Shown here: positions 16,146 through 40,647 of the stretch, piece after piece
Numbering within the stretch: position 1 is the stretch's first letter
Layout: each line of letters begins with the position of its first letter
DNA from: an uncultured Roseiflexus sp.
GTDB taxonomy: Bacteria > Chloroflexota > Chloroflexia > Chloroflexales > Roseiflexaceae
Assembly (NCBI GenBank): GCA_937935075.1
Contig: CALGYB010000099.1
Coordinates: forward strand, 1-52,641
DNA length: 52,641 bases
Reading direction: 5' to 3'
Translations under genes and position numbers: made by a program
Notes under the pieces: generated by a model
Database searches by the model: none
Seen by the model: only the letters and a program-made list of their open reading frames with translations
What the model was told of the DNA's origin: nothing

Positions 16146-16231
16146 GCTGTTGGAGCGACCCTGACATTCATCCGACGCACGACCACGATGCAACCAACAA
16201 TCTGAACCCTGTTCGGTTGAAAGGCGCAGCC

Positions 16232-19021: not shown

Positions 19022-19740
19022 AACAGGTCAATCTGTATCTCTCGCGCCAGTCGTCGTCGCTTGGCCGGTATGTCTGGGAGCAGGTCGTCCAGGCGGCAGC
19101 CGGATGGATTCCGGGGATTGTCGGGATTGGGGTGCGCGCAGTCGTGTATCGCGCGATAATGCACATCGACGGCGTGGCAGCCATCGAGGAGGGCGTGCGC
19201 ATCCGGTTTGCCGATAATGTGCGGCTTGGGCGCGGCGTCTACCTCGATCACGGCGTCTATCTGCATGCCTGTCCTGGCGGCATCTCGATTGGCGCCGAGA
19301 GTTATGTGATGAAGAATGCCATTCTCCACGTGTACAACTTCCGCGATCTGCCGCATGCCGGCATTCGAATCGGCGCCCGGTCTCTGATCGGCGAGGCGTG
19401 CATCCTGCGCGGGCAGGGAGGCATCACGATCGGCGACGACGTCTTTCTGGCGCCACTGGTGCAGATGCTGGCGGTGAACCACGTGTACCACGACACCAGC
19501 AGACCGATCAGCCTGCAAGGGATCACCTGTCAGGGGATCACGGTCGAAGACGGCGCCTGGATCGGCGGCGGCGCGATTATTCTCGATGGCGTGCGCATCG
19601 GGAAAAATGCCGTCGTCGGCGCGGGCGCGGTCGTGACCCGCGATGTGCCCGACTATTGCGTCGCGGTCGGCAATCCGGCGCGCATCGTCCGCGACCTGCG
19701 CAGCCAGCCGGTGGCGCCGGCGAAGGTTCCGGTGTATTGA
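19018..19740 (+). CDS. Left-handed beta-helix (hexapeptide) acyltransferase
   Basis: A 240-residue protein with repeated [LIV]GxxxxI turns from residue 55 on (for example [57 protein letters not shown]) and the typical close [16 protein letters not shown]. The pattern matches WbbJ/Maa-type sugar O-acetyltransferases that use acetyl-CoA. [15 protein letters not shown] carries the usual active-site His. An N-terminal helix precedes the coil. The ATG overlaps the Wzz stop by four bases, so the two are translationally coupled. Decoration of the polysaccharide repeat unit is the likely role; the acceptor is unknown. Confidence 0.82.
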
Positions 19741-19825: not shown

Positions 19826-20801
19826 CCATTCTACCGTCTGGTTGGGCTGACTGCTGGCGTGCTGGCAATTGTTTGCCTTCTGTGCATCAATCAGCCACTC
19901 TACCCCCATCCCTGGTTTGACGAGGGCCTGAATGCAGGCGCAGCCGCTACGCTTGCGCGAAAGCGGCCTGTACGCATTGCCAGACCCGGACAGTCTGCGG
20001 ACTCTCGATCCGGCGATCCAGAGACCGGACCGACCGTTATCATTCCCATCGCTGTCGCTTGCCGCATACTTGGTCCGAGTATCTGGCTGGCGCGCATGAT
20101 CATGCTTCCGTTTGCAGCGCTGGCCGTTGTGATGTTTGTTCTTGTGGCGCGACGGCTTACCGGGGTTCACGGCGCCGTGCTGGCGACCCTGTTGCTGATG
20201 GCAGGCACATACGACCTCTATGCCAGTTTTGTGCCGATGGCGCGCCAGACATTGGGCGAGGTTCCTGCGCTCGCGTTCCTGCTGCTCGGGCTTCTGATCT
20301 GGTTTCGTTCGCTGGAGCGCGAAGCGCATGCTCCGCTTGCCTGGGCATTGAGCGGCATTGCCTGGGGCCTGGCGATGATTACCAAGTCGCAGGCGCTCAT
20401 TCTCATTCCTGTTTATTGGGAGTAATCCCGGCTCTAGATCGACTGTACTATCGCAGGGCAGGCTGGCTTGCCGTGATCGTCCCTGGCGTCTTCGCAGCTA
20501 TCCGTCGACACGTGTTGCAAATGAATATACCCGTCACCTGATCCTCCGCCAGCAATTGCCTGAGAAGGTGAGAGATGATCTCCCCACGTCTCCAGACTAC
20601 GTCCTGGTAGGCGGTTTTGGCGCGTGGACAAACATGTATCACGACATCATCGCCAGCCCCTGTGCTCATCTGGTGGTTGAACATGGCGCCTATAGCCTCT
20701 ATCGAGTGGTGACGCATCCGACATCTGACGCACCCCTCACGCCGCACTTCCCCCGGCGTCATCCGATTGTCATATCTCCATGCCACGATCTCTGGCAGTG
20801 A
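19826..20801 (+). pseudogene. Decayed GT-C (PMT/ArnT-like) membrane glycosyltransferase
   Basis: A remnant of a gene like the intact one at 49933-51549. Segment 1 (19826-20425) encodes GVLAIVCLLCINQPLYPHPW and FDEG, then QTLGEVPALAFLLLG and ITKSQALILIPVY, matching the WFDEG, QVLGEAPGVAFVFLG and VTKNQFVLIIPLA stretches of the intact copy. Within it, two offsetting frameshifts are visible: in an alternative frame the bases at about 19955-20020 read LRESGLYALPDPDSLRTLDP, a more natural sequence. Segment 2 (about 20413-20505, another frame) reads ALDRLYYRRAGWLAVIVPGV. Segment 3 (about 20526-20801, the third frame) reads PDYVLVGGFGAW and GAYSLYRVV, matching the C-terminal end. About 200 central-to-late residues are missing between segments 2 and 3. 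Confidence 0.85.
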
Positions 20802-20875: not shown

Positions 20876-22120
20876 ATGACAACCTTATCGGTGGTGATCC
20901 CGGCGTATAACGAAGAAGATGGGATTGCGGCAATCGTCGAGCGTGTGCTGGCGATTGAGCCTGAATTGCCGAAGTACGGCGTCGATGCGCTGGAGTGTAT
21001 TGTAGTCGATGACGGTTCGCGCGATCGCACGGCAGAGATTGTGCGGCGCTATGTGCCGCGGGTACGTCTGATTCAACAGCCCAACAAAGGGTACGGCGGG
21101 GCGTTGAAGACCGGCTTTCAGGCGGCGAGCGGCGATCTGCTCGGATTTCTCGATGCGGACAGCACCTATCCGCCGGAATATTTTCCGCAGATGTGCAAAG
21201 TGGCGCTCGATGGCGCCGACCTGGTGATCGGCAGCCGCATGGCGGGCGCAACAAGTGAGATGCCGCTGGTGCGACGTATCGGAAATTTCATTTTTGCCAA
21301 CCTGCTCTCGCTGGTCGCCGGTGTGCGCATCAGCGATAGCGCCAGTGGTCAGCGGATCATCCGCCGTGAGGCGCTGCCGCTCCTCTATCCGTTGCCCGAT
21401 ACGCTCGACTTCACCCCGGCGATGAGCACGCGCGCGCTGCACGAGAACTTGCGCATGGTCGAAGTGCCCATCCCGTACAAAGAGCGCTCGGGGCGCAGCA
21501 AACTCAGTGTGGTGCGCGACGGGCTGCGCTTCTTCAAGAGTATTGTGTGGACGGCGCTGACCTACAATCCGGTGCGCATTTTCGGCGGCATCGGCGCGCT
21601 GCTGCTGTTGCTCAGCGTGTTGGTGATGGCACTGGCATTCGGTATGCAGGCGCTCGGCATCGACTCGGTCGTCTCCTTCCCGCGTCTGTTCGGCGCGCTG
21701 GTGCTGGCGGTCGCCGGTGTGACGCTGTACACCACCGGCACGTCGTTCAGTTACATCGTTGCGCTGTTCCACAAGCGCCCAATCCGGCAGGGCATGTTCG
21801 GTCCGCGCGGTAATGGACGCAAGATCGAGAAGCACTACTGGTGGCTGGGGATGGTGGCGGTTCTGCTGGGTATCGTCATCTACATTGCTGCGGTCGCCTT
21901 CGATCTGACCAACCCGGCATTGCAGGTGTCGTGGTTTGCGCCGGTGGTCAGTGCGCTGCTGGTGCTGACCGGCGTGCAACTGGTGAGCGCCTGGAGCCTG
22001 GCGCGCGTGCTGGCGGAACTGAGCGTGCGCGAGGGTCTGGCGGCGCGCGACCTCAGCGGCAACGGTGTGCCGGGAGCCGCCACGAACGCCGAGAATGTGC
22101 AGACTGCGGCGGTGTCGTAG
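20876..22120 (+). CDS. GT2 glycosyltransferase with C-terminal membrane segments (DPM1/GtrB-like)
   Basis: A 414-residue protein. Residues 1-235 are a GT-A domain: LSVVIPAYNEEDGI, ECIVVDDGSRDRTAEI, PNKGYGGALKTGF, then GFLDADSTYPPEYF with the DAD metal motif and DSASGQRIIRREAL. Residues 240-400 contain four membrane segments (for example GALLLLLSVLVMALAFGMQA). This layout fits enzymes that transfer a sugar from a nucleotide donor to polyprenyl phosphate, supplying GT-C transferases such as those at 46.6-51.5 kb. GAGGAGG lies about nine bases before the ATG. The donor sugar is not deducible. Confidence 0.88.
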   Translation: MTTLSVVIPAYNEEDGIAAIVERVLAIEPELPKYGVDALECIVVDDGSRDRTAEIVRRYVPRVRLIQQPNKGYGGALKTGFQAASGDLLGFLDADSTYPPEYFPQMCKVALDGADLVIGSRMAGATSEMPLVRRIGNFIFANLLSLVAGVRISDSASGQRIIRREALPLLYPLPDTLDFTPAMSTRALHENLRMVEVPIPYKERSGRSKLSVVRDGLRFFKSIVWTALTYNPVRIFGGIGALLLLLSVLVMALAFGMQALGIDSVVSFPRLFGALVLAVAGVTLYTTGTSFSYIVALFHKRPIRQGMFGPRGNGRKIEKHYWWLGMVAVLLGIVIYIAAVAFDLTNPALQVSWFAPVVSALLVLTGVQLVSAWSLARVLAELSVREGLAARDLSGNGVPGAATNAENVQTAAVS

Positions 22121-22426: not shown

Positions 22427-24454
22427 ATGAGTTCTGCTATGACGAAATGCCCAGATCGCCTATCCATTTCCCGCCGTCGCTTCCTGCAGGTGTGTGCGTG
22501 TGCAGCAGCGACCGGGGCGCTTGGCGCGACGGGGTATGTCGTCGCCAATGCTCCGCTTCCCCCTCCGTACTCCGGGTCGTCGGTTTTTCATACGCCGGTC
22601 GTGGGCACGCCGGCGCCTGATGCGCCCATCCTGCTGGTGACGAATCCGGCGGCGCAGCCGTCGTTTGGCGCATACCTTGGCGCTATTCTGCGCGCCGAAG
22701 GGTTTGTGGCGTTTCGGATGGCGCGCCTTGATGCTCTTGATCGGGCGCTACTGGCGCAGTTTCCGCTCGTGCTCCTGGCAGCCGGTTCGCTTCCCGCAGA
22801 AGCCGCCGATCTGTTTCGCGCGTATGTGCTGAATGGCGGGCATCTGATCGCGTTCCGTCCCGATTCGCGCCTCGCCGACCTCATGGGCGTGCGTGCGCTG
22901 GGGGGTGAGGTGACCGATGGCTTGCTCTCAGTCGCCGATCATCCGCTCGCACAGGGCATCACCACGCAGGCGCTTCAGGTCCATACCTCGATAGCGCAAT
23001 ACGAACTGTCCGGCGCCGAGGCAATTGCCTGGATAGCCCGCCGTGACGGCAGCCGGACATCTTATCCCGCCGTCACGGTGACGCGCGCCGGGAAAGGTAT
23101 TGCTGCGCTCTGGGCATTTGATCTGCCCTGGAACATCGCCCTCATCCGTCAGGGGAATCCGGCAGCGGCAAACCAGGAACGCGACGGGATGGAAGGGGTT
23201 CGGACGGTTGACCTGTTCGTGGAGTGGATCGACCTCGACCGCATCGAGATTCCACAGGCGGACGAACAGCAGCGGTTGCTTGCAACCATGGTGCATGCGC
23301 TGGCGGGTGACGCGCCGCTGCCGCGTCTGTGGTATTTGCCGGCTGGCGCTGCTGCGGTGCTGGTGGCAACTGGCGATGCCCATGGCCTGCTGGCGTCACA
23401 CATCGATGCGGCGCTGGACCTGGTGCATCGGTACGACGGCGCGCTCTCGGTCTACTATGCCCCGCCGCCCATGAGCAATCGGTCGCGGACGCTGCGCCGG
23501 GTGCGCTGGTGGGCAGCGGAACTGCCGGTCGCCGGCGCGGTCTTCACCGACGACTCAGGGTACCCGACACCAAAAGATGTGGCGCGCTGGCGCGATAGTG
23601 GTCATGGATTTGGCTTGCATCCCTACGTCGAACAGGGGGTTGGCAAGGGGTATCACGAGTACTGGAACACCTTCATCAAACTGGGGTACGGACCGGCTGA
23701 GCCGACCGTGCGCACCCATCGGGTGCTCTGGTCGGGATGGGTTGAGACGGCGCGGGTGCAGGCGCAGTACGGTCTGCGCATGAGCCTCGACCACTACCAT
23801 AGCGGTCCGCTTGTGCGTCGCGCGGATGGGTGCTGGGTTCACGGGTATCTGACCGGCAGCGGACTGTCTATGCCTTTCGTCGATGAGCAGGGAAATCTGT
23901 TGCGCGTCTACCAGCAGCATACGCACATTGTCGATGAGCACCTGATGCGAGTGTTCGACACCGGTTATGAGATGGGGGTGGATGTCAACGAAGCGATTGC
24001 CATTGCGTGTCGGCAGATCGATGCGGCAGTGGAGCGGTATCCTTCGGCGCTTGGGTTGCAGTGCCATATCGACCCGTTCGCCTTTGGCGGCGAGAAGGCG
24101 GAGATGGTGAGCGCCTGGTTCGACCGCGTGCTCAACCATGCTGCGTCGCGTGGGGTGATGATCGTGTCGGCGGAACAATGGCTGGCGTTCAGCGAGATGC
24201 GCGATCGGGCGGAGATGCGCGACCTGACGTGGGATGAAACTGAAGGCGCATTGACGTTTGAGACGGTTGTCGGTACCGAGTCACAGCATGCGCTGGCGCT
24301 GCTGCTGCCGCTGGAGCACCGCCAGCGCCCCCTGCGCCAGGTGACCATCAATGGTGTGCCGGCGAGCGCCGAGCAGAAGCGCGTCGGGGGCGTCGCCTAT
24401 GGCGCGGTGGCGCTGGCTGCCGGGAGGCGGCAGGTGCGGGCGAACTATAGATGA
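22427..24454 (+). CDS. Tat-exported two-domain protein: amidotransferase-like plus polysaccharide-deacetylase-like
   Basis: A 675-residue protein starting with a clear twin-arginine signal (SISRRRFLQVCACAAATGA, then ATGYVVANA). Residues 60-270 look like a class-I amidotransferase/ThuA-type flavodoxin-like domain (ILLVTNPAAQPSFGAYLGAI, LVLLAAGSLP, FVEWIDLDRI) without an obvious catalytic Cys. Residues 295-600 look like a TIM-barrel of the deacetylase/GH57-like kind: AVLVATGDAHG, AVFTDDSGYPTPKDVARW, HGFGLHPYVEQG, QQHTHIVDEHLM and LGLQCHIDPFAFGG hold candidate metal-binding Asp and His residues. It probably acts on glycans outside the membrane, but no named family was recognised. An ATG at 22439 is an alternative start. 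Confidence 0.65.
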   Translation: MSSAMTKCPDRLSISRRRFLQVCACAAATGALGATGYVVANAPLPPPYSGSSVFHTPVVGTPAPDAPILLVTNPAAQPSFGAYLGAILRAEGFVAFRMARLDALDRALLAQFPLVLLAAGSLPAEAADLFRAYVLNGGHLIAFRPDSRLADLMGVRALGGEVTDGLLSVADHPLAQGITTQALQVHTSIAQYELSGAEAIAWIARRDGSRTSYPAVTVTRAGKGIAALWAFDLPWNIALIRQGNPAAANQERDGMEGVRTVDLFVEWIDLDRIEIPQADEQQRLLATMVHALAGDAPLPRLWYLPAGAAAVLVATGDAHGLLASHIDAALDLVHRYDGALSVYYAPPPMSNRSRTLRRVRWWAAELPVAGAVFTDDSGYPTPKDVARWRDSGHGFGLHPYVEQGVGKGYHEYWNTFIKLGYGPAEPTVRTHRVLWSGWVETARVQAQYGLRMSLDHYHSGPLVRRADGCWVHGYLTGSGLSMPFVDEQGNLLRVYQQHTHIVDEHLMRVFDTGYEMGVDVNEAIAIACRQIDAAVERYPSALGLQCHIDPFAFGGEKAEMVSAWFDRVLNHAASRGVMIVSAEQWLAFSEMRDRAEMRDLTWDETEGALTFETVVGTESQHALALLLPLEHRQRPLRQVTINGVPASAEQKRVGGVAYGAVALAAGRRQVRANYR

Positions 24455-24639
24455 CGGTCATCCGGGGGATGGCAGGCGGTGCGCGGCGGGAATGGGCGAT
24501 TGGGGCGGGCAGGGGGCGGCTGGGCGGGGGTTGGGGGAGATGACGGTCATCCGGGGGATGGCAGGTGGTGCGCGCTGGGAATGCGCAACCGGGGGGGACT
24601 GGACGTGAGGGTGGGGAAGTGGTGCAGATGACGGTCATC
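24450..24639. promoter_or_regulatory. Three identical 13-bp palindromes spaced 88-89 bp apart
   Basis: GATGACGGTCATC occurs exactly at 24450-24462, 24539-24551 and 24627-24639. Each copy is followed by related sequence containing 'cggtgcgcg' or 'tggtgcgcgctgggaatg', so this is a degenerate 88-89-bp tandem repeat. Each core is a perfect 6+1+6 palindrome, the shape of a dimeric regulator site. The first overlaps the stop of the upstream gene and the last lies 73 bases before the next ATG (24713). Confidence 0.6.
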
Positions 24640-24712
24640 GGGCGGTGCGCGCTGGGAATGCACCTGCGCGCGGAATGTAAGCAATTCACCATGACGATCA
24701 AGGAGACGATGC

Positions 24713-27199
24713 ATGACAGACGTTCGAAGTTCTTCCTGGCGCAGGTATCTGGGGCTGGCGCTGGTGACGGCGAGCATTCTGGCGTTGCAGGTGACGTTCA
24801 CCCGCATCTTTTCGATCATGATCTGGCACCATTTTACCTACCTGATCATTGGGGTGGCATTGCTTGGCGGCGGCGCGTCTGGCACGTTTCTGGCAGTGCG
24901 CGCGTGGGACGCGGCGAAGCTTGAGCGCCGGCTGGGGAAACTCGTCGTTGTGTATAGTCTGGCGGTGCTGCTCAACCTGGCGATTATCGGCAGCGTCGCC
25001 ATTGATCCGTTGCGCGGCAGTCAGATTGTGCAAACCCTGGTCGGTCTGGCGCTCTATTTTGCCGGATTGTTCACAACATTCTTCCTCGGCGGGTTGATTG
25101 TTTCCGGCGTGTTTACCTTGTGGCACAAAGAAGCGCATCGCCTCTACTTCGCAGACATGCTGGGAGCGGGTGTGGCGACGCTGGTGATCGTGTGGGTCAT
25201 CCAGGCGATTGGCGGTCCGGCGACAATTGTGCTGACGGCGCTGCTCACGCTGGCAGGCAGTTGGTTGTTTGGCGTTGCGCTGGGGCGACACTGGCGCATT
25301 GGCGCTGCCATGCTGAGCGCCGGTCAGGTTGCGCTGGTCGGCTGGCTCCTCTTTGGGACGCCATTGCATCTGCCGGTGCCCGGCTCGAAAGAACTTGGAT
25401 GGGCGCAGCAACACTTTGGTGCGCGCCCGGAGTATACGCGCTGGAACCCGGTGGGGCGCGTTGATGTGATGCCAACCATTCAGGTGAAGGAGCCGATGAT
25501 CGTCGGCGGCATCAGCAAGGTGTATCTGGCAAGCGACGAGTTTCAGCGCGCGCCGCTGTACGACCTGAAACTGGTAACGCTTGACGGCACTTCGATGACC
25601 GGCATGTACCGGTTTGATGGAACGGACGCAGATCTCCAACGTTTCCGCTTCCTCGACCACGCAATCATCAGTGCGCCGTACCAGATGGGGTTGAAGCACG
25701 ACACCGCCTTGAAGATCGGCGTCGGCGGCGGTCTCGATATTCTGTTGGCGCGATTGTACGGCACTCAGCAGATTACCGCCATCGAATTGAATGCGGACGT
25801 TGTGAAGTTGCTGGAAGGACCGTATCGTGAGTTCAGCGGCAATCTCGCCGGGCATCCCTCCACGCGGATTGTCGTTGCAGAAGGGCGCAGTTTCCTGACG
25901 CGCGATGCCGCCACCTATGACCTCATCCAGGGAATTGGTCTCGATAATCTGGTGGCGCTTTCCGGCGGCGCATACGTCCTTTCCGAGTCCTATCTCTACA
26001 CCGTCGACTCGTTTACGCTCATCCTGAACCGGCTCAATCCGCAGGGGGTCTTTGCCTGGACGCGCAATGTCGATCAACCGCCGCGCGAAATGTTGCGGAT
26101 CACGGCGCTGGCTGCCGAGGCGCTGCGGCGACGCGGCATTGCCGATCCTGCCGCACACATCGCCATTGTCGCCAATGACACGAATACTCAGGCGACGCTG
26201 CTGGTGTCGCCGTCGCCGTTCTCGCCGGAAGCAATCGAGCGGCTGCGGGTATGGGCGGATGCTAATGCATTCATCATGCTGCATGATCCGTTGCAGCGGC
26301 TCAATACCGTGTATACGGATTATCTTTACGCACTCGATGTGCGCGCCTTTGAGGATGCGTATCAGTTCAACATCTTTCCGGTGACGGATGACAATCCCTT
26401 CTTTTACAATTACTTCAAGTGGGGTCGTCTGACCTTCGACCAGGCGTTCACGGGGAAGCTCAACCGCTTCCCGATAGGAAATCTGATCCTGGTTGTTATG
26501 TCTGGTTTTTCGCTGGCGAGTGCGGCAGCGTTCATTGTGGCGCCGCTGTGGCGCCATAACCGGCGCGGGTTGCAGTCGCCGCTGGCGCGCCCCATGCTGG
26601 TCTACTTCAGCGCCCTGGGAGTCGGCTACATTTTCGTGCAGATTGTGCTGATCCAGCGGTTTACCTTGTTCATCGGCTATCCCACGAGCGCCATCACCAC
26701 GACGATCTTCAGTATGCTGCTCTTTTCGGCAATGGGAAGCCTGCTCAGCCGCCGCCTGATCGATAGCCCCGCCCGCCTCCGCATGGCGCTGATTGCAGTC
26801 GTCATCGCCGTTGGCGTGTACATTGCGGCGCTGCCGCCGCTGTTCCAGGCGCTGCTGCACCTGCCGGACGCCGCGCGTATGGCGGTGAGCGTGCTGATGA
26901 TTGCGCCGCTTGCGTTGCTCATGGGCATGCCGTTCCCAACCGGTCTACGGCAACTCGGCACGCATGGCGCGGATCTGGTGCCATGGGCATGGGGGATGAA
27001 CGGCGTCTTTTCGGTCGTCGGCTCGACTCTCGTGATCATCGTCAGCATGGCAAGCACGTTTACCGTTGCCATGGCGTGTGCAGCGCTGTTCTATGGCGTC
27101 GCTGCCGTCGTTGCTGCGGGACTCTACCGGGGTGTGGCGGTGCGGTTGCCTGGAGTTGCGGGGGGACCGGTGGATGTGGTGGAGGGGGTCAGGGGGTAG
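24713..27199 (+). CDS. Membrane-embedded spermidine-synthase-like protein
   Basis: An 828-residue protein with three parts. Residues 1-215 contain about six membrane segments (LGLALVTASILALQVTFTRI, YLIIGVALLGGGASGTFLAV). Residues 240-570 contain a Rossmann methyltransferase/spermidine-synthase-like domain with IGVGGGLDILLARLYG, ITAIELNADVV and the loop YDLIQGIGLDNL. Residues 590-810 contain seven or so more membrane segments. This architecture is widespread in bacterial envelopes as 'SpeE-like membrane proteins' and is biochemically little studied. An aminopropyl- or methyl-transfer role at the membrane is inference. Three palindromic sites lie directly upstream. The stop is followed at once by a GAGAACC-type repeat. 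Confidence 0.75.
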   Translation: MTDVRSSSWRRYLGLALVTASILALQVTFTRIFSIMIWHHFTYLIIGVALLGGGASGTFLAVRAWDAAKLERRLGKLVVVYSLAVLLNLAIIGSVAIDPLRGSQIVQTLVGLALYFAGLFTTFFLGGLIVSGVFTLWHKEAHRLYFADMLGAGVATLVIVWVIQAIGGPATIVLTALLTLAGSWLFGVALGRHWRIGAAMLSAGQVALVGWLLFGTPLHLPVPGSKELGWAQQHFGARPEYTRWNPVGRVDVMPTIQVKEPMIVGGISKVYLASDEFQRAPLYDLKLVTLDGTSMTGMYRFDGTDADLQRFRFLDHAIISAPYQMGLKHDTALKIGVGGGLDILLARLYGTQQITAIELNADVVKLLEGPYREFSGNLAGHPSTRIVVAEGRSFLTRDAATYDLIQGIGLDNLVALSGGAYVLSESYLYTVDSFTLILNRLNPQGVFAWTRNVDQPPREMLRITALAAEALRRRGIADPAAHIAIVANDTNTQATLLVSPSPFSPEAIERLRVWADANAFIMLHDPLQRLNTVYTDYLYALDVRAFEDAYQFNIFPVTDDNPFFYNYFKWGRLTFDQAFTGKLNRFPIGNLILVVMSGFSLASAAAFIVAPLWRHNRRGLQSPLARPMLVYFSALGVGYIFVQIVLIQRFTLFIGYPTSAITTTIFSMLLFSAMGSLLSRRLIDSPARLRMALIAVVIAVGVYIAALPPLFQALLHLPDAARMAVSVLMIAPLALLMGMPFPTGLRQLGTHGADLVPWAWGMNGVFSVVGSTLVIIVSMASTFTVAMACAALFYGVAAVVAAGLYRGVAVRLPGVAGGPVDVVEGVRG

Positions 27200-27235
27200 G
27201 AGAACCGAAAACTGAGAACTGAGAACCGAGAACCC
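27200..27235. repeat. GAGAACCGAGAACTGA-type dispersed repeat
   Basis: Four or five imperfect 7-8-base units (gagaaccg, aaaactga, gaactga, gaaccga) begin directly after the stop codon of the membrane spermidine-synthase-like gene. Confidence 0.7.
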
Positions 27236-27389
27236 TGTCGCCCCGTCGTGACTGTCACTACTCGCGTTCTGCGTCTGACCCTGGCGACTCGTCGGGCAGG
27301 ATGAAGAACAGGAGTATGCCCGTCGTCCAGTGGTGACAGTCCACAGGCGTTGCGGTGCAACGCCTCTACCTGTAATCTTCCCACCTTCA

Positions 27390-27564
27390 CCCCTCTTCCC
27401 TCTCGCCTCACACCTCTCGCCTCACACCTCTCGCCTCACACCTCTCGCCTCACACCTCTCGCCTCACACCTCTCGCCTCTTCCCTCTCGCCTCACACCTC
27501 TCGCCTCTCCCCTCTCGCCTCTTCCCTCTCGCCTCTTCCCTCTCGCCTCTTCCCTCTCGCCTCA
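27390..27564. repeat. 14-bp tandem array related to CTCACACCTCTCGC
   Basis: About a dozen copies of two alternating variants, CTCACACCTCTCGC and CTCTTCCCTCTCGC. It is related to the 7-bp array beside parA and, on the opposite strand, to the array near 36.15 kb. Open frames through it (Ser/Pro/His/Leu polymers) are artefacts. The rest of 27236-27742 holds a 'gttgcggtgcaacg' element and nothing credible as a gene. Confidence 0.9.
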
Positions 27565-27742
27565 AATATGTCACCTCTGTAACCCCGGTTCAACCATCCT
27601 GTCAGCAGACATTCACGGCGCACGATTATGCTGATGATGCAGTATCAGTTCAGCGCGATCCAAGCAGGGGAACCTCGCGGCGGCAGACCCCGCGACCCCC
27701 GATGCCATGAGCGCGCTGCCCACGTGGGAGGAAGAACGTCAT

Positions 27743-29476
27743 ATGTCGGAGAACGAGACAAACGCGACGAACGGGAAGCACATTGCGCCCGGTGACAAGA
27801 AGCAGGGCATCAAACTGGTCGCTCCCGCCCGCGCCGATGAGCGCGCCGGTGAAATCAAGTTTGTGGAGATGCCGCGTGAGAAACAGCCGCGGCTCGACGT
27901 GCTGGTGCTTAATCCGCCATCGCCCGATGGCGACCTGTTCCTGCGCGACATTGCGCGCGTCGGGCGCCGCACCCGCGACGGCATCATCTGGCCGCAGACG
28001 GCGCTGGCGCAGATTGGCGCAGTCGTACAGCAGGCGGGCTATACCGTCGATGTGGTCGATGCCATCGGCCTCGAAATGTCGTGGGAAGATTTCGAGCGCT
28101 ACATGTACAAACACAAGCCGCGCTACATGATCATCCACGCCACTGCGCCGACGCTTACCAACGACATGCGCACCACCTTCATCGGCAAAGCGGTCGGTAC
28201 GATTACCATGGCGATCGGTACGCACGTCACGCCGATGAGCCGCGAGACGCTCGAATCGTACCCGACGCTCGATATCGTGATCCGCGGCGAGCCGGAAATG
28301 ACCATTCTCGATGTTATTCAGACGGTCGACCGCCAGGTGGAACTCGAGAGGGCCACCGAGACTGTGCCGGTCGGCAATCCCGATCTGACGTCGCCATGGC
28401 GCAAATTGCCGTTCCCGGATGCGTCGTACCTGACGACCCGTGGCCGTTTCCTGGGAGTGTATCCGCAGGTTATCGCGCGCGCGCTGCGCGAAACGCGCGG
28501 CATCGCCTTCCGCAACGAGCACGGCGAAGTCCAGATCAATCCTGACCGTCCGTTCATCGAGAACCTGGATAGCCTGCCGCTGCCGTTGCACCACATGCTA
28601 CCCTGGAAAAAGTACAAGGTTCCGATTGTCGGCGGACCGTACACGTTCGTGCTGACGAGTCGCGGGTGTCCGGCCGGCTGCCGCTACTGCATCAAGCACG
28701 TGACCTACCAGGCGAGTGTGCGTCACCGCAGCCCGCAGCATGTGCTCGAAGAGATGTACATGCTCAAAGAGATGGGCATGCACCACATCCACTTCGAGGC
28801 CGACCTGTTCACCGTCAAGAAAGAGTTCGTCTACGACCTGTGCAATGCGATCATCAAGGACGGCATCAAACTCCAGTGGTCGTGCAACAGCCGTGTTGAC
28901 TTCGTGGACGCCGAGGAACTGGCGCTGATGAAGAAAGCCGGGTGCTTCATGATCGCCTGGGGTCTGGAGAGCGGCAGCGAGGCGGTGCTGAAGCGCGCCC
29001 GCAAAGGCACGACGGTCAAGCGCATCGAGGAGACGATTGCCGCGAGCCGCAAGGTGGGCATCAAGAACTGGGGCTACTTCATCATCGGGTTGCCCGGCGA
29101 GACGGTCGAGACCATCCAGCAGACGATTACGCTGTCGAAGCGGCTGCCGCTGGACATCGCCCTGTTCCACATTGCCACGCCGTACCCCGGCACCCCCTTC
29201 TACTACGAAGCGGTCGAGAACGGCTGGATTCAGATGGACCGCTGGGAAGATTACGACATGTACAACCACACGGTGCTGAACTACCCGCACCTGAGCTCGA
29301 AGGACCTGGAGTACTGGGCGAAGCGCGCCGCGCGCGAGTGGTCGCTGCGCCCCGGACCGATCATGACCTTCCTCAAGGCGGCGAGCAACCGCGAGACGCT
29401 CGGGCGCCTGTGGAAGATCGGAACGAACCACATCCGCTGGATGAGCGGCAGCCTGACGGGCAGCGGGGCGTCATAG
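27743..29476 (+). CDS. B12-binding-domain radical SAM enzyme
   Basis: A 577-residue protein. Residues 45-200 form the cobalamin-binding Rossmann domain (VLVLNPPSPDGDLFL, TALAQIGAVVQQAGYTVDVVD, MIIHATAPTLTNDM), without the DxHxxG His, as is common in this class. Residues 300-540 are the radical SAM barrel with SRGCPAGCRYC (C309, C313, C316), LVFHFEAD-like strand HIHFEADLF and GLESGSEAVLKRARKGTTV. Relatives include BchE, HpnJ and phosphonate or lipid methylases, and catalyse methylations or ring rearrangements. The ATG at 27743 has GGAGG about ten bases upstream and is preferred to the one at 27707. The substrate is unknown; the setting suggests a cell-surface lipid or glycan. Confidence 0.85.
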   Translation: MSENETNATNGKHIAPGDKKQGIKLVAPARADERAGEIKFVEMPREKQPRLDVLVLNPPSPDGDLFLRDIARVGRRTRDGIIWPQTALAQIGAVVQQAGYTVDVVDAIGLEMSWEDFERYMYKHKPRYMIIHATAPTLTNDMRTTFIGKAVGTITMAIGTHVTPMSRETLESYPTLDIVIRGEPEMTILDVIQTVDRQVELERATETVPVGNPDLTSPWRKLPFPDASYLTTRGRFLGVYPQVIARALRETRGIAFRNEHGEVQINPDRPFIENLDSLPLPLHHMLPWKKYKVPIVGGPYTFVLTSRGCPAGCRYCIKHVTYQASVRHRSPQHVLEEMYMLKEMGMHHIHFEADLFTVKKEFVYDLCNAIIKDGIKLQWSCNSRVDFVDAEELALMKKAGCFMIAWGLESGSEAVLKRARKGTTVKRIEETIAASRKVGIKNWGYFIIGLPGETVETIQQTITLSKRLPLDIALFHIATPYPGTPFYYEAVENGWIQMDRWEDYDMYNHTVLNYPHLSSKDLEYWAKRAAREWSLRPGPIMTFLKAASNRETLGRLWKIGTNHIRWMSGSLTGSGAS

Positions 29477-29889
29477 GCATTGAACAATCTTACACACGAT
29501 GACCGTCTTGTGATTGGCGTCGGCTCGGACAGACTCAACCCGTGATGGCTGCGCCTGTCAAAGCTGACGCCAGCCGCTTCAGAGATACAGGCGTAATTGT
29601 CGAGGTTTTGGTCGATTGCTCTGCAAGTTCTCACAAAGTCAGCAGCATTGATTGGCGTGGCGCGGGACCTCACCCTTCGACTTGCAGAATTGTCATTATC
29701 CGGCGCCGGGGAACTTCATCATCACTTCATAGGGGTGCGTGATGATCCGTGGCAGACAGAGAAAGCGCCATTCGTGGCACAGACCGAACGACCTCGTTGG
29801 AATGCTTCTCGCCAAGCGACAAGTCCTCAAAGTCCGTTGTTCGCAATAGTGCGCTTCAGCGGCACACCGGCATCACGAAGGGTCAGTTG
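29477..29889. other. 413-base spacer without a recognisable gene
   Basis: No frame here looks coding. A perfect 8-base inverted repeat, ATCATCAC (29718-29725) and GTGATGAT (29739-29746), is the only clear structure. It lies about 145 bases before the next start and could be a regulator site. Confidence 0.4.
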
Positions 29890-31065
29890 ATGGCGACACA
29901 TGCAACAGCAACAGCGGGGATCCTCTCACAAACCAGCGTTGCTGCGCAAACGACAGCGCTCAGCCGCATCACCGCGATCGACGCGCTGCGCGGCGTGGCG
30001 CTGGCGCTCATGGCGCTGACTCACGCCGCATTTTTCATCGGCGTCGGGATGCAGGCGGAGTCGTATGGCGGGCAGGCGGTCTATCTCCAAAGCCCGCCTT
30101 ACTGGCTCTCCGGGTTGCTTACCACGCTGGCGTCGCCGATCTTCTTCTGTCTTGCAGGTGTCAGCCTGGCGCTGCTCGAACAGTCGCGCGTGCGCAAAGG
30201 CGCGTCGAGTTGGGCGGTGAGCCGCTTCATCCTGGCGCGCGCCGGCGTCATTATGGCGCTCGACCTGACGATCTGCGCCTGGCTGTGGCTGGGGAAGATG
30301 CCGTACATCCACGTGCTGACGGCGATGGGACTGGGCATGATTGTCCTGTCAGCCTTGCGCCTGTTGCCGGCGCGCGTGATCCTGGCGGTTGCCGTTGGGA
30401 CGCTGCTGGTGCACCAGGGGATCATCGAAGCGCTACGACCGCAGCTCGAAGCAGGCGCGCCGCAGAGTCTGGCGCAGGCGCTGTTCTTGACCTACAGCTA
30501 CGAGACGCAGCCGCCGGTCGGGTTCCCGCTGCTGGGGTGGGGTCCGGTGATGTGGCTGGGGTTTGTGCTGGGGCGAAATCTGAGCCGACCGGCGCTGCGG
30601 CAGCCGCGCACCTGGCTGGGGATCGGCGCGGGGTTGCTGGCGCTGTGGCTGGCGCTGCGCCTGATCGGCGGCTATGGCGACCTGGGATCGTACCGCGCCG
30701 ATGATCCGCTGCCGCAGTTCCTGGTGATGAGCAAAGCGCCGCCGAGCCTCAGTTATCTGGCGTTCAAACTGGGAATTGCGGCGTTGATCTTCGCTGCGCT
30801 GATCGCCTTCCCAAAGGGAATTGAAACCGGTCTGTTGCGCGTGCTGACCCTGATCGGGCAAACGTCGCTCTTCTTCTATGTGATGCATATTGTCGTGTAT
30901 CACGTGCTGGCGCGGGCGTTCTTCACCATCGACGCCCCGGCGCTGCCGGGTATTGTATACGGCTATGCGCTGTGGGCGCTCGGTATGCTGGCGCTGATTC
31001 CACTGTGCGGAGTCTACCGCGCGTTGCGGAAGCGGTATCCGGAGAGCGTGTTGCGGTATTTGTAG
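29890..31065 (+). CDS. HGSNAT/DUF1624-like membrane acyltransferase
   Basis: A 391-residue polytopic protein. The opening RITAIDALRGVALALMALTH is the signature of the heparan-glucosaminide N-acetyltransferase/DUF1624 group. The close, LIPLCGVYRALRKRYPESV with terminal LRYL, matches the family's C-terminal LYPLC..KxR..WLxYL pattern. Nine to ten membrane segments lie between. These proteins move acyl groups across the membrane from acetyl-CoA to sugars. The ATG at 29890 has GAAGGG about seven bases upstream; the upstream extension is not hydrophobic and lacks the motif. It probably modifies a surface glycan. Confidence 0.72.
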   Translation: MATHATATAGILSQTSVAAQTTALSRITAIDALRGVALALMALTHAAFFIGVGMQAESYGGQAVYLQSPPYWLSGLLTTLASPIFFCLAGVSLALLEQSRVRKGASSWAVSRFILARAGVIMALDLTICAWLWLGKMPYIHVLTAMGLGMIVLSALRLLPARVILAVAVGTLLVHQGIIEALRPQLEAGAPQSLAQALFLTYSYETQPPVGFPLLGWGPVMWLGFVLGRNLSRPALRQPRTWLGIGAGLLALWLALRLIGGYGDLGSYRADDPLPQFLVMSKAPPSLSYLAFKLGIAALIFAALIAFPKGIETGLLRVLTLIGQTSLFFYVMHIVVYHVLARAFFTIDAPALPGIVYGYALWALGMLALIPLCGVYRALRKRYPESVLRYL

Positions 31066-31132: not shown

Positions 31133-32218
31133 GTGCGCGTGCTTGTCGTTGCTACCAACACAACGCCGCCGGGTCTCAGCGACGAGGTGCGCGCCGGTCG
31201 GCATCAGCGCGTCGATTACCTGGAATTGGCGCAGCGCTTTAGGACAGCGCATCACGACTATAATGCACTCCGTTCCAACCGATTGGTGCAGCGGCTCGAG
31301 GATCTGTCCCGCTTTGATGTGCAACAGGCAATGGCAGTGGCGCGTCTGGCGAAACGCAGCGGCTACGATGTGGTGGTGAGTCTTTCCGAGCGCGTAGGGA
31401 TTCCGCTGGCGCTCCTGCTTGATCGGCGCATCCGCCACATGGTCATCTTTCACCACGGCATGTCCCGGCAAAAGTTGCGCCTGATCAGGGCGTTGAAGTT
31501 GCAGCAGCGCTGGGATGTCATTGCAGCGATCAGTCGCGCCGAGGCTGAGGGGATGCGAAAGGCGCTCGGTCTTGACAATCAGCGCGTGGTTGCGCTCCAT
31601 ACGCCCGTCGATGTTGATTTCTATAAGCCATCGCAGCCGTCAACCGGTCGTGAGGCGTTTATCCAGAGTCTGGGACTGTCGCACCGTGACTATCCAACGC
31701 TCATTCGCGCTATGCGGCGACTGCCGCACATTTCCTGCCATTTGCGAGTGGGCAGCACGTGGGTGACGCGGCGCGGCGGTCATGAGCAGGAAATACTTCC
31801 ACTGAACGTCACCCCGCAACCGTTCGTTCACCCCAGCGTTCTGCGGCAGTGTTACGAAGAGAGTCGGTTTATCGTCGTACCCATCCAGGCATCGACCCAG
31901 TGGAGCGCGGGGTGCACGTCGGTGCAGGCGGCACAGGCGATGGGAAAGCCGGTTGTGGCAACCCGTCGTCCTGGATTGAGCGAATATCTTATCGAAGACG
32001 AAACAGGCGTGCTTGTTGAGCCTGGCGATGACCGGGGGATGGCGGAGGCGATTGAGACTTTGTGGAACGATCCGCAGCGCATTGTTCGGATGGGGCGCAG
32101 AGCGCGCGAGTGGATTGTGAGCAACCATTCGCTCGATCAGTGGCTCGACCGGGTAGCGGCGCTGGTTGAAAAGGCGGCATGTCACGCTGTCCGGCGCTCC
32201 GGCGAGGCTTACGCATAG
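31133..32218 (+). CDS. GT4-family glycosyltransferase
   Basis: A 361-residue GT-B enzyme starting at GTG with GGAGGAGG eight bases upstream. The C-terminal half holds the nucleotide-sugar domain: VVPIQASTQWSAGCTSVQAA then QAMGKPVVATRRPGLSEYLI and TGVLVEPGD. The usual EGFG..xxE motif is replaced by the more divergent SAGCTSVQAAQAMG. It is cytosolic or membrane-associated and transfers a sugar to a lipid-linked intermediate. The 3' end overlaps the predicted flippase start, arguing for one operon. Donor and linkage are unknown. Confidence 0.82.
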   Translation: MRVLVVATNTTPPGLSDEVRAGRHQRVDYLELAQRFRTAHHDYNALRSNRLVQRLEDLSRFDVQQAMAVARLAKRSGYDVVVSLSERVGIPLALLLDRRIRHMVIFHHGMSRQKLRLIRALKLQQRWDVIAAISRAEAEGMRKALGLDNQRVVALHTPVDVDFYKPSQPSTGREAFIQSLGLSHRDYPTLIRAMRRLPHISCHLRVGSTWVTRRGGHEQEILPLNVTPQPFVHPSVLRQCYEESRFIVVPIQASTQWSAGCTSVQAAQAMGKPVVATRRPGLSEYLIEDETGVLVEPGDDRGMAEAIETLWNDPQRIVRMGRRAREWIVSNHSLDQWLDRVAALVEKAACHAVRRSGEAYA

Positions 32219-33699
32219 GTTTTTTCGGTATGATGCACCAACTTGCTACAACCGTCCTGCGCAACTCTGCGTTCGGCATGGCGGCGCATATTGCGATGAA
32301 GTTGCTCTCGTTCGCCTTTTCGGTGCTGATCATCCGCAATCTGGGGGCGACCGATTTTGGACAGTATGCCGCCGTGCTTGGATTTGGCAGCGTGTTTCTG
32401 TTCATTGCCGACCTGGGGCTTAGCCCGTACACCGTGCGCGAGGTGGCGCGCCTGCGCGATCAACCCGACGGCAAGGAGCGCATTCAGGCGCTGTACGCTG
32501 ATGTTCTGACCCTGCGCCTGATCCTGTCGGTAATTGCCGGTATCCTGGTTGTCAGCGCCGCCATCCTGACGGGGCGACCGCTGCTGATGATCGGCGCGAT
32601 TGCGATCAACTCGTTGACCGTCCTGGTCTATGCGGTTCACGGCAGCAGCGAAGCGGTGTTGTCAGGGTATGAGCGGCTCGATCTGGTATCGGGGATGCAG
32701 GTTATCAATCAACTTGCGTTTGTCACGATTGGCGGTCTGGCGCTCTGGTTGGGGTTCGGGTACTATGGTCTGATCATCGCAACCATGATCGGCGTTACGC
32801 TGATGACGGCGCTGGTGGTGCGCGCCGTGCTGCGTCTTGGCGTTCGCCCCGGTCGCGTCACCTGGCGGCGCTGGCTGCCGCTGCTGCGCGCCGCGTTTCC
32901 TTTTGGCGTCATCGGTCTGACGCTCGGCATTTCGTACCGCTTCGACACGGTGCTGCTCAACATCTACAGCGGCGATACGGTCACCGGGCATTACAACGCG
33001 GCATACAATCTGATCTTCTCCCTCGTCACCCTGTCGAATGTGCTCAACACCGCCTTGTACCCGTCGCTATCACGGCAGTCGGCGACAGCGCCGGAGACAT
33101 TGCCGCTGGTGTACGAACGGGTGTTGCGCTACCTGATGCTGGTGGCGCTGCCGATTGCCGTTGGCGGCTTCATGGTTGCTGCGCCGTTGATCGGGTTGCT
33201 GTTCGGCGCCGATTATGCGCCCGCAGCGCCGTTGTTTGCCATCCTGGTCTGGGTGCTGCCGCTGATGTTCCTTTCCGAATTTCTCGGCTACGTGGTGGTC
33301 ATCGCCGGGCGCGAGGCGTTGGTGGCGCGGTCGATCATCGTCAGTAGCAGCATCAATGTCGTTGCCAACCTGATCTTCATCCCCGTCTACGGCGTACTGG
33401 CGGCAGCGGTGATCACGGTCATTACCGAAGCAGTGCTGGTTGTGCAGTATGTCTGGCTGGTGCGCGACCTGTTGGGGCGGATGAAGTGGAGCGCCTTTCT
33501 GCGCTCTGCGCTGGCAGTCATCGCAATGGCGGCGCTGGTCTATCTGACGCGCAGCCTGCCGGTCCTGGCGACAATCGCGCTCGGTGGCGCGCTCTACGGC
33601 GGGTTGCTGCTGGCGATGCGGGTTGTCGGACCGGACGAGGCGGCGTTTGTGCGCGGATTCCTTGCGGCGCGGCGCGCGCCGGCGGAAGGACATTCGTGA
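32179..33699 (+). CDS. Wzx-type polysaccharide flippase (MATE/MVF-like)
   Basis: A 506-residue protein with twelve to fourteen hydrophobic segments. The N-terminal AFSVLIIRNLGATDFGQYAA is typical of polysaccharide transporters, and ADLGLSPYTVREVAR and SYRFDTVLLNIYSG are characteristic. It should flip the lipid-linked repeat unit across the membrane. The ATG at 32179 overlaps the previous gene by 40 bases and has AAAAGG just upstream. Starts at 32230 or 32233 would remove 17-18 basic residues and lack a good ribosome-binding site, though the hydrophobic region would be intact. Confidence 0.85.
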   Translation: MSRCPALRRGLRIGFFGMMHQLATTVLRNSAFGMAAHIAMKLLSFAFSVLIIRNLGATDFGQYAAVLGFGSVFLFIADLGLSPYTVREVARLRDQPDGKERIQALYADVLTLRLILSVIAGILVVSAAILTGRPLLMIGAIAINSLTVLVYAVHGSSEAVLSGYERLDLVSGMQVINQLAFVTIGGLALWLGFGYYGLIIATMIGVTLMTALVVRAVLRLGVRPGRVTWRRWLPLLRAAFPFGVIGLTLGISYRFDTVLLNIYSGDTVTGHYNAAYNLIFSLVTLSNVLNTALYPSLSRQSATAPETLPLVYERVLRYLMLVALPIAVGGFMVAAPLIGLLFGADYAPAAPLFAILVWVLPLMFLSEFLGYVVVIAGREALVARSIIVSSSINVVANLIFIPVYGVLAAAVITVITEAVLVVQYVWLVRDLLGRMKWSAFLRSALAVIAMAALVYLTRSLPVLATIALGGALYGGLLLAMRVVGPDEAAFVRGFLAARRAPAEGHS

Positions 33700-33715
33700 G
33701 ATATCTGGAGCAGCA

Positions 33716-35038
33716 ATGAATATTGTTCTGCCGGTCCATCATTTTCTGCCGCGCTACACTGCCGGCGCCGAGTTGTATACTTATCGCCTGGCGCGCTGGC
33801 TGCACCGCTACGGGCACACAGTGGAAGTCGTCGCCGTCGAGTCGGTCGAGCATGAGAATCCTGGTACACTTGCTGTGACATCAGACACGTTCGACGGCAT
33901 TCCGGTTCACCGATTGCATTTCAACCGGGAAGCGGGAGCGCGCAGTTGGGAATACGACAACCCCTTGATCGGCGAATGGTTTACGCGCTACCTCGAACAG
34001 ACGCGCCCTGATCTGGTTCATTTTCAGGCAGGGTATCTGATGGGTGTTGCGCCGCTGCGCGCCGCTGTCGCTGCTGGTGTGCCGACGGTGCTGACGCTGC
34101 ACGATTACTGGTTCATCTGTCCGCGCTGGACTCTGCTGCGCGGCGATGGCGCGCTGTGCCGCGCTGTTCCTGATGATCCCGCCGAATGCGCCTGGTGTCT
34201 GCATCTTGATCGGCGTCGCTTCCGCCTGCCGGAGCGGGCGACCGGCGGCATGTTTGGGAACATGTTGCGACGCGCCGGCTTCGATCCGGGACGTGAGTAC
34301 ATTGCAGCGCGTCGCGAAGCGCTGCTCCGCGTACTAGCGTTGCCGGATGAAGTCATTGCTCCTTCGCATTTCCTGGCGGATCAGGTGCGCGCTTACGCGC
34401 CGCCAGATCGCCTGCACGTCTTGCGTCTTGGTCTCGACCTGGCGCCATTTTCCGGCATTCAGCGTCACGGTGAGCGTGACGCGCTGCGGCTTGGTTTTAT
34501 TGGGCAGATCGCGCCGCACAAAGGAGTCCATCTGCTCATCGCTGCGTTTCGGCAGTTACAGGCGCGCTCCAAACGTATCGAGTTGCACATCTACGGCGGA
34601 CTGACTGCAAACCCGGCGTATGTCACCCGGCTGCGCCGTATGGCGGGGAAGGACTCGCGCATCCATTTCCACGGAAGAATTGAAAACACTGCTGTTCCAG
34701 CAACTCTTGCCGGGTTTGATGTAGCGGTAGTTCCATCGATATGGTACGAAAACTCGCCACTGGCGATTCTAGAAGCGCACGCGGCGGGAACGCCGGTGGT
34801 GACTGCCGACATTGGCGGTATGGCGGAGTTGGTGCGCGATAGCGTCGATGGTCTGCACTTTCGTTTCAACGACGCCACCGACCTGGCGCGCGTCTTGCAG
34901 CGCCTGATCAATGAACCTGATCTGCTGCCGCGGCTGCGATCCGGCATTCAGAAGCCGCGTAGCATCGAGGATGAGATGGTTCAAATCCTTGAGATTTACA
35001 ATGAAGCCATCGCTCGACATGCTGCTCATAGACTTTGA
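33716..35038 (+). CDS. GT4-family glycosyltransferase
   Basis: A 440-residue GT-B enzyme. The N-terminal domain begins MNIVLPVHHFLPRYTAGAEL, a glycine-containing loop typical of GT4 enzymes, with TVLTLHDYWFICPRW further on and a Cys pair in ECAWCLHL common to a GT4 subgroup. The C-terminal domain contains LGFIGQIAPHKGVHLLIAA and the donor motif PSIWYENSPLAILEAHAAGT. It begins 16 bases after the flippase stop, with CTGGAG before the ATG. It probably adds one sugar of the repeat unit. Confidence 0.86.
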   Translation: MNIVLPVHHFLPRYTAGAELYTYRLARWLHRYGHTVEVVAVESVEHENPGTLAVTSDTFDGIPVHRLHFNREAGARSWEYDNPLIGEWFTRYLEQTRPDLVHFQAGYLMGVAPLRAAVAAGVPTVLTLHDYWFICPRWTLLRGDGALCRAVPDDPAECAWCLHLDRRRFRLPERATGGMFGNMLRRAGFDPGREYIAARREALLRVLALPDEVIAPSHFLADQVRAYAPPDRLHVLRLGLDLAPFSGIQRHGERDALRLGFIGQIAPHKGVHLLIAAFRQLQARSKRIELHIYGGLTANPAYVTRLRRMAGKDSRIHFHGRIENTAVPATLAGFDVAVVPSIWYENSPLAILEAHAAGTPVVTADIGGMAELVRDSVDGLHFRFNDATDLARVLQRLINEPDLLPRLRSGIQKPRSIEDEMVQILEIYNEAIARHAAHRL

Positions 35039-35204
35039 AACATGCGCGCGGTCTGCATTGTAACCTGCCTGCGCGGGCTGGACCGGGCTATAGCGGATTA
35101 TTTTCGCCAAAAATGTTGACGCAAGGGTGTGAAGTCGCAAAGGCGGGTAGGGTTGATGGCAAGCATTTGCCTCTTCGCGTCGATTTTGCGGTAGGAATGA
35201 TGAG

Positions 35205-36107: not shown

Positions 36108-36685
36108 GATTAACAACATTTCATTCAGGCGAGAGGGGCGAGGCGAGAGGGGCGAGGGGCGAGGCGAGAGGGGCGAGGGGCGAGGCGAGAGGGGTTGCGG
36201 GTGGTCGTTGAATGCGACGGCGCCAACGTTGCGCCGCAACGTCTTGAAACGTTATACGTAGGGGCGCCTTGTGGGCGCCCGTGGGGTCGCGGCAAGGCGT
36301 CGGGGCGCCTTGTGGGCGCCCTTTGTAGAGTGTAAACAGTCACCTCAGTAGCCCCATGATTCAGAAGAACAGGTGCGCAGGTGAAAGGCGCACATATGAC
36401 CCTCTCTGCATCCTCTGCGGCTCTGTGGTTCCAACCAGCAGGCGCACACGTGGCAGATGTGCGAGCGAATGGTGCATGTGTTGCTCCTCTCCGTGCCCTC
36501 TGTGGCTCTGCGGTTCAGAAGAACAGGCGTGACCGGAGCGGTAAGATCCACCTGATCTCACAATGACAATATCGTCAATCACTCCCCCTCCCCATTTAGA
36601 GCGCCGTCACCGCTGCGTGCTATAGTCTTTTCAGGCTTGCCTGTCAGCGATACAGGCGTGGCATCCGTGGAAGGAGAGCGCGGTT
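36108..36685. repeat. Spacer composed of four dispersed repeat types
   Basis: From left to right: a 15-bp 'gcgaggcgagagggg' array (36128-36195); an 'aacgttgcgccgcaacg' element; two copies of GGGGCGCCTTGTGGGCGCCC (about 36261 and 36303); and two diverged copies of a 'ccctctgtggctctgcggttc' tract with 'cagaagaacagg' (about 36360-36440 and 36480-36535). Frames that cross it are low-complexity. A CCTGT/ACAGG hairpin at 36640-36656 follows the promoter. Confidence 0.75.
36618..36626 (+). promoter_or_regulatory. Extended -10 promoter for the adaptor lipoprotein gene
   Basis: TGCTATAGT is a good extended -10. It lies 60 bases before the ATG at 36686, giving a leader of about 53 bases that contains a CCTGT-ACAGG hairpin. 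No clear -35 is visible. Confidence 0.4.
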
Positions 36686-38227: not shown

Positions 38228-38236
38228 GAGCCAACC

Positions 38237-39409: not shown

Positions 39410-39419
39410 GGTGACGACA

Positions 39420-40646: not shown

Positions 40647-40647
40647 T

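Follow-up and report, generated by a model that had tools for sequence, protein, structure and literature searches.

The contig analyzed here (CALGYB010000099.1; 52,641 nucleotides, hereafter the window) comes from the 4.85 Mb genome of an uncultured Roseiflexus sp., and we read positions 15102-52598 as one surface-polysaccharide locus of >37 kb that is conserved in filamentous Chloroflexota. We find that the conserved nucleus of this locus is formed by three genes: a hexapeptide (left-handed beta helix, LbH) acyltransferase (19018-19740), a family 2 glycosyltransferase (GT2, 20876-22120) and a B12-binding-type radical S-adenosylmethionine (SAM) enzyme (rSAM, 27743-29476). An earlier, sequence-only reading of the window had singled out four consecutive genes at 22427-31065, g1 to g4, of which g3 is the rSAM, and had proposed that they form one pathway modifying a surface lipid or sugar. 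With moderate confidence, we favor the view that rSAM, together with GT2 and LbH at the core of the locus, modifies a sugar for a lipid-linked surface glycan.

The nucleus emerged from a search of 400 Chloroflexota genomes with rSAM, GT2 and LbH. For rSAM, with one row per genome, 71 genomes gave a match at E ≤ 1e-40; 41 of these were kept as orthologs (E of 2e-122 or better) and 30 were dropped, the first match below the ortholog set having an E value of 8.7e-66. We observe rSAM in 41 genomes, GT2 in 40 and LbH in 39, and the complete set in 39 of the 42 genomes that carry at least one of them. Of the remaining genomes, two have rSAM on 4-kb contigs (G248 and G299; G, L and C numbers are our designations for genomes, loci and contigs) and one has GT2 alone (G168). 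rSAM accompanies GT2 in 39/40 genomes and LbH in 39/39. The 39 genomes with the trio span 13 families; outside the order Chloroflexales the trio is complete in 16 of 19 genomes (10 families), and at these thresholds 17 listed genomes within the order show no member of it. The genes are also closely linked. rSAM and GT2 share a contig in 35/39 genomes, always <10 kb apart and on the same strand and in 28 cases <1 kb apart, and GT2 and LbH share a contig in 38/39.

Strong rSAM matches were found in 18 sampled Chloroflexota outside the order, at 46-58% identity and with some split into pieces. The loci of 15 of these, taken as stretches of 18-20 kb each, contain LbH in 15, GT2 in 14, heptose-type genes in 12, an initiating sugar transferase (PGT) in 9 and a g1-like protein in 3 (G330, G270 and G140, the GT2 of G140 lying on a separate contig); g2 and g4 were not found in these stretches. 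Mantel tests of gene-tree distances, made on 21 of 25 regions, gave a rho of 0.86 for rSAM and GT2 across 21 loci and of 0.50 across 14 outgroup loci. Among 18 more distant rSAM loci (L014-L031), a GT2-like frame lies directly beside rSAM in two. One is a deltaproteobacterial metagenome-assembled genome (MAG; L014) with an rSAM of 33% identity and an upstream GT2 frame (2434-3141, 235 aa from stop to stop), and the other is an uncultured Eubacterium (L028) with an rSAM of ~30% identity and a downstream GT2 of 313 aa (12217-13158). In L028, two radical SAM frames and then GT2 follow in a row (9983-13158), and GT2 overlaps the second frame by 4 bp.

The third of the four genes had been called a B12-binding radical SAM enzyme, and its membership of the radical SAM superfamily is well supported (Pfam Radical_SAM, PF04055, 92.3 bits for a cut-off of 29.5). 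In an alignment of 25 rows chosen from those available, the cysteines of the CxxxCxxC motif (residues 309, 313 and 316) are invariant in 25/25. The start may be drawn differently, as a further open ATG lies upstream at 27707. Three named contigs with rSAM matches of 94-96% identity come from two Roseiflexus sp. MAGs and a Chloroflexi MAG. Among NCBIfam models rSAM comes nearest to HpnJ, BchE and ApyD but stays far under cut-off for each; BchE (TIGR02026) gives 175.6 bits for a cut-off of 481.35, AprD4 (NF033070) gives 108.6 for a cut-off of 500, and several methyltransferase models give ~61-117 bits. Its nearest solved structure is AprD4 (E 2.4e-35), matched over the radical SAM half. HpnJ is also the best model, below cut-off, for the outgroup orthologs of L169, L175 and L178 and for L014; for the rSAM of L015 the best model is BchE, again below cut-off, and the rSAM of L029 belongs to another group.

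We asked how the four genes are distributed in 82 genomes of the order, with close orthologs and adjacency read by eye from match tables (weaker g1 matches in 15 genomes and distant g2 matches of 29-32% in 4 genomes were dropped). The genes exist as predicted, in the order g1-g2-g3-g4 and all on the forward strand, and since each has close homologs they are not chance frames. rSAM occurs in 35 genomes, and close orthologs of g4 occur in 26, of g1 in 24 and of g2 in 21. Every close-g2 genome carries g1, g3 and g4 as well, and all 24 with g1 carry g3 and g4; g4 occurs additionally in G040, with g3, and in G069, without it. The distributions are therefore nested, not scattered and independent. 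Among the four, conservation within the order is highest for rSAM, at 79-96% identity, followed by g2 (59-91%), g4 (51-84%) and g1 (46-74%).

Linkage gives a different picture from presence. g1 and g2 are adjacent in 21/21 close-g2 genomes, and in Chloroflexus-like genomes g1, g2 and g4 form a tight trio (30 and 31 bp apart in G007) with g3 27-37 kb away, as seen in five genomes with both on one contig (G006, G007, G009, G014 and G025). We find g3 beside g1 or g2 in only 9 of 24 close-g1 genomes (G000, G065, G066, G068, G060, G030, G061, G029 and G017); of the other 15, the 13 that were tallied have g3 within ~0.7 kb of GT2. Additionally, g3 occurs without a close g1, g2 or g4 in 10 of its 35 genomes. 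The contiguous order g1-g2-g3-g4 is seen in the window and in G065, and across contig ends in G060 and G030. Conservation of the neighborhood holds for the locus as a whole, which agrees with the polysaccharide setting first proposed for these genes, but not for the four genes by themselves, and the claim that they make up a single pathway unit is not supported on this point.

The first gene, g1 (22427-24454), encodes a two-domain protein whose predicted export by the Tat (twin-arginine translocation) route is upheld by the Tat signal model (TIGR01409, 23.1 for a cut-off of 16.7) and by a twin arginine invariant in 23/23 rows of an alignment from which two near-duplicates, fragments and distant or fused proteins were left out. 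The window protein has no Pfam match above cut-off. Across the family at E ≤ 0.1, weak matches to DUF4350 (14/23), GATase1_like (6/23) and the GH42M type (2/23) weakly suggest an amidotransferase fold for the N-terminal domain. The best PDB match of the g1 profile, to the N-terminal domain, is a weak one to an endo-mannanase (E 0.00056), and six further matches at E 0.4-1.6 are mostly to beta-galactosidases or related proteins. The amidotransferase-like label given to g1 can be kept for the fold but not for class I glutamine amidotransferase chemistry, as the nucleophile cysteine is absent: no cysteine occurs at residues 26-468 of the window protein, which means that the 23 rows share none in this part. 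The C-terminal part contains D317, H319, H393, H398, E402, H431, D455, H458, H547 and D549 as invariant residues, among 16 invariant D/H/E in the family overall, a set that resembles that of a metal hydrolase. For the deacetylase-like label of g1, profile comparison (hhalign) with the NodB polysaccharide deacetylase gave probabilities of 6.7% and 1.6% in two versions (in one, ~5 of 20 loci passed a motif filter; the other used 15 proteins) with just a short GHxxGxH patch aligned; none of four control profiles exceeded 0.6%. An AlphaFold2 model of g1 from 6 rows was too poor to use (mean predicted local distance difference test score, pLDDT, 42.6) and was set aside. Two Chloroflexales lacking close g1, g2 and g4 (G052:C2:912761-918829 and G057:C2) have very large frames that contain both g1 halves; that of G052 is 2022 aa long and lies in the same locus as its rSAM.

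The product of g2 (24713-27199) was described as a SpeE-like membrane protein, and that description finds support: although the window protein has no Pfam match, 10 of 20 aligned members (fragments left out) match Spermine_synth weakly, the family profile finds PDB spermidine synthases through the middle domain (best E 3.3e-7), and hydropathy predicts 13 membrane segments either side of residues 215-590. In spermidine synthases the first Asp of the D-x-x-D motif is catalytic. g2 retains the Gly-rich motif, the ribose-loop Glu and the second Asp, but the first Asp is replaced in 20/20 rows and the proposed aminopropylation is for that reason unsupported. g2 thus appears to be no ordinary aminopropyltransferase, and it may have another SAM-dependent or SAM-sensing role. 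Its AlphaFold2 model (4 rows, mean pLDDT 37.9) was likewise too poor and was set aside. In Roseiflexus SKYB12, g2 is split over two frames (L005 6522-9009).

The last of the four, g4 (29749-31065), is clearly a predicted membrane acyltransferase of the HGSNAT/DUF1624 type, as first labeled, with 52.3 bits to HGSNAT_cat (PF07786) for a cut-off of 22. Its homologs in relatives align only from query residues 27-67 onward, which makes Met48, at 29890, the likelier start. In an alignment of 17 rows, which left out fragments and rows with internal stops (including L121 and L122), H92, H188 and H380 are invariant, and hydropathy gives 11 segments. The locus copy of g4 in Roseiflexus 629F.7 is reduced to two fragments (L013 14163-14621), and G066 has a long g4 match of 82% with one internal stop (G066:C161:14712-15896).

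The wider locus was compared by open reading frames between the window and G007, G014, G025, G052 and G065, plus parts of G061, G017 and G030. It is long and its content differs between genomes. In the window it has 25 called genes, every one on the forward strand, and it runs nearly to the contig end at 52641. Upstream of LbH lie a GHMP kinase resembling heptose 7-phosphate kinase (HddA-like, 15102-16145), a HAD phosphatase resembling D-glycero-D-manno-heptose 1,7-bisphosphate 7-phosphatase (GmhB-like, 16217-16855) and a Wzz/tyrosine-autokinase-like chain-length protein (16901-19021; TIGR01007 67.1 bits, below its cut-off of 108.05, with weak Pfam matches). The GmhB-like protein barely passes its model (NF006506, 179.1 bits for a cut-off of 178). 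The HddA-like protein matches Pfam GHMP kinases and fails its model (NF049969, 181.4 bits for a cut-off of 600), so that its label expresses a family likeness only; among other Chloroflexota, some have a homolog in their rSAM locus. The GmhA-like protein of G007 scores 118.4 bits, below the equivalog cut-off of 209.45. The GmhA-like gene of the source genome, 55% identical to it, lies on another contig (C40), where the surrounding 20 kb contain a sole further match to locus genes, at 36%.

Between LbH, called from Pfam Hexapep, and GT2 lies a PMT-type membrane glycosyltransferase (19832-20711, labeled by eye without a family scan). It appears decayed or misassembled, because it is broken into three frames here and lacks ~200 residues (229-428) of the single 501-aa frame in G065. 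GT2 itself matches Pfam Glycos_transf_2, has a hydrophobic C-terminal tail and resembles polyprenyl-phosphate-sugar synthases, with AglJ as best NCBIfam model (114.6 bits, cut-off 325). Downstream of g4 are a group 1 glycosyltransferase (31133-32218, from Pfam) and a Wzx-type flippase (32179-33699; Polysacc_synt, 100.5 bits). The rest of the locus (33584-52598) contains, mostly by eye, glycosyltransferase-like proteins, an HlyD-like adaptor, polymerase-like and PMT-like membrane proteins and a hydrolase; three proteins of this part that were family-scanned gave no match. In other genomes the locus carries further genes. G007 encodes a 176-aa protein without a Pfam match between GT2 and rSAM (L150 2652-3179), with matches in G014, G025, G052 and G028. 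G218 has an uncharacterized nucleotidyltransferase (NTP_transf_5) between LbH and GT2 (L174 13034-14257), with a homolog in G175, and this is a candidate for sugar activation.

The spacers of the four-gene stretch contain repeats, as had been noted. An 88/89-bp repeat spans the end of g1 and the g1-g2 spacer (24443-24661), and a tandem array of ~12 copies of a 14-nt unit (CCTCTCGCCTCACA) occupies the g2-g3 spacer (27399-27564). This array belongs to a dispersed genome-wide repeat family: a 23-nt piece of it, with ≤2 mismatches, matches the genome at 277 sites (120 forward and 157 reverse) and its reversed control at 0. A scan of the window with Rfam found nothing, and a promoter scan gave 2 sites for 2.2 expected. 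Terminator-like sites number 12 for 5.5 expected (sd 2.5) and were not used in any conclusion; one of them, on the minus strand (29780-29765), lies in a spacer of the four-gene stretch if g4 starts at Met48.

Beyond the gene content, co-occurrence, linkage and motif losses observed here, every substrate and reaction that follows is one that we infer. The HddA-like, GmhB-like and GmhA-like genes would make heptose-type precursors, and GT2 would place the sugar onto polyprenyl phosphate. On that sugar, whether free, nucleotide-bound or lipid-bound, rSAM would generate a carbon-centered radical leading to a rearrangement of the carbon skeleton, as HpnJ does on lipid-linked glucosamine, or to C-methylation. 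LbH would O-acetylate the sugar, and the flippase and PMT-like transferases would export and attach it. To this scheme the Chloroflexales appear to have added g1, g2 and g4, best read as lineage-specific envelope steps: the Tat-exported g1, with its metal-hydrolase-like invariant residues, may trim the glycan outside the cell, the membrane acyltransferase g4 may acylate it, and g2 would be a membrane-embedded protein whose SpeE-like core binds SAM.

That rSAM probably makes an unusual sugar follows from its being nearly always accompanied by one sugar transferase and one acetyltransferase, and these neighbors indirectly favor a sugar over a lipid as its target. A role in changing a surface-glycan sugar is suggested by three further points, namely HpnJ as nearest model and AprD4 as nearest solved structure, the order of steps in the HpnJ pathway and the chemistry of non-methylating members of the class. 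AprD4 acts on a sugar, and it is said to have lost cobalamin use. According to one report, HpnJ acts last, after the glycosyltransferase HpnI and the deacetylase HpnK (PMC12583986), and a preprint describes the few known non-methylating B12 radical SAM enzymes as forming rings or rearranging their substrates (PMC13142503).

Several observations weigh against this reading. The rSAM-GT2 association (Fisher p 1.5e-50) was computed without correction for phylogeny, and in 8 outgroup loci with a PGT the tree agreement of rSAM with PGT (0.85) exceeds that with GT2 (0.65), so trees agree for genes beyond the trio as well. Conservation of a neighborhood alone does not prove that rSAM acts on the GT2 product. 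Directly beside rSAM, 16/18 distant loci have no GT2 match (matches lie ~8 kb away in L021 and L030, and the remaining 14 have none), and the GT2 frame of L014 has no ATG, GTG or TTG start giving 100 aa. Three of the 15 stretches from outgroup loci showed no heptose genes, and neither the HddA-like nor the GmhA-like protein reaches its cut-off. For the enzyme itself, the B12-binding part of the original label falls just short, with 31.1 bits to PF02310 for a cut-off of 32.1 and with matches at E ≤ 0.001 in 18/25 members, so that cobalamin use is putative. HpnJ (TIGR03471) is matched with 245.3 bits and its cut-off of 577.6 is not reached; as every curated cut-off is missed by far, the reaction cannot be read from the models.

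The choice of radical reaction is where an alternative has most to offer. rSAM could be a plain methylcobalamin-dependent C-methyltransferase that yields a branched sugar without rearrangement, a real possibility though not one we would expect to hold. Methylation predominates in the class (PMC13142503), and the methyltransferase models do score; the two top models, HpnJ and BchE, are however non-methylating, and scores that are all sub-threshold are weak either way. At the other end, the three genes could be a cassette that uses radical chemistry to rearrange the skeleton of a heptose-type sugar, for example by contracting its ring to a carbocycle, while the sugar is carried on the lipid that serves surface-polymer assembly. 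We hold this more specific proposal to be rather unlikely, and to our knowledge such a rearranged surface sugar is known from no polysaccharide.

The proposal of one dedicated export-and-modification pathway of g1 to g4, in which radical methylation or rearrangement, aminopropylation and acylation act on a surface lipid or sugar, draws on the contiguous arrangement in four genomes, the window included, and on the nested presence of the genes. It seems quite improbable given the separation of g3 from g1 and g2 in most close-g1 genomes, the genomes with g3 but no close g1, g2 or g4, the outgroup stretches without g2 and g4, and the loss of the catalytic Asp in g2 and of the cysteine in the amidotransferase-like domain of g1. 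It would be harder still to credit that the locus merely gathers unrelated genes and that rSAM serves a pigment, lipid or other pathway. The length and variable content of the locus and the generic repeats in its spacers would fit this, but not the co-occurrence of the trio in 39/42 genomes across 13 families with tight linkage. As to pigments, the source genome encodes a separate true BchE (832.4 bits), and a link of rSAM to phototrophy was rejected because its presence does not track that of reaction-centre genes: PF00124 occurs in 63/82 genomes and rSAM in 35/82, and two genomes with rSAM (G052 and G030) show no PF00124 match.

Our reading of rSAM, GT2 and LbH as a sugar-modifying nucleus has one of its closest known counterparts in HpnI-HpnK-HpnJ, which makes the hopanoid cyclitol ether. 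Both systems have a glycosyltransferase and then a B12-type radical SAM enzyme, for which HpnJ is the best NCBIfam model here, and in the window locus g1, as a putative deacetylase-like protein, lies near rSAM. They differ in that HpnK is probably a cytosolic enzyme and g1 an exported protein, and in that GT2 scores only 20.2 bits to HpnB, with DPM1/AglJ-type models best. No hopanoid model was above cut-off among the locus proteins scanned, and no other search for hopanoid genes was made. rSAM shares the B12-type radical SAM architecture of the anaerobic cyclase BchE and has its best structural match in the sugar diol-dehydratase AprD4, but it stays far below both models, and the genome has its own BchE. 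Spermidine synthase resembles the middle domain of g2 by profile match, and g2 differs in its 13 predicted membrane segments and its replaced Asp. In a Brachyspira plasmid block, glycosyltransferase and epimerase genes neighbor radical SAM genes (PMC4267127); the gene content of this block differs from that of the window locus, and the two are likened by description, not by sequence.

In the literature searched we found no earlier description of a conserved rSAM-GT2-acetyltransferase unit in Chloroflexota surface-polysaccharide loci. Within the words tried, open-access papers did not describe a B12 radical SAM enzyme in such a polysaccharide locus; by title they offered no Chloroflexus cell-wall composition data, and on HpnJ ring contraction we found nothing beyond PMC12583986. 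Altogether, the four-gene pathway first proposed is corrected to the unit that evolution retains, rSAM-GT2-LbH. Non-methylating B12 radical SAM enzymes are few, and here a conserved rSAM is tied to a defined glycosyltransferase and a defined acetyltransferase. The group includes the cultured Chloroflexus and Roseiflexus, and the unit may there provide an entry to radical sugar chemistry in the cell envelope.

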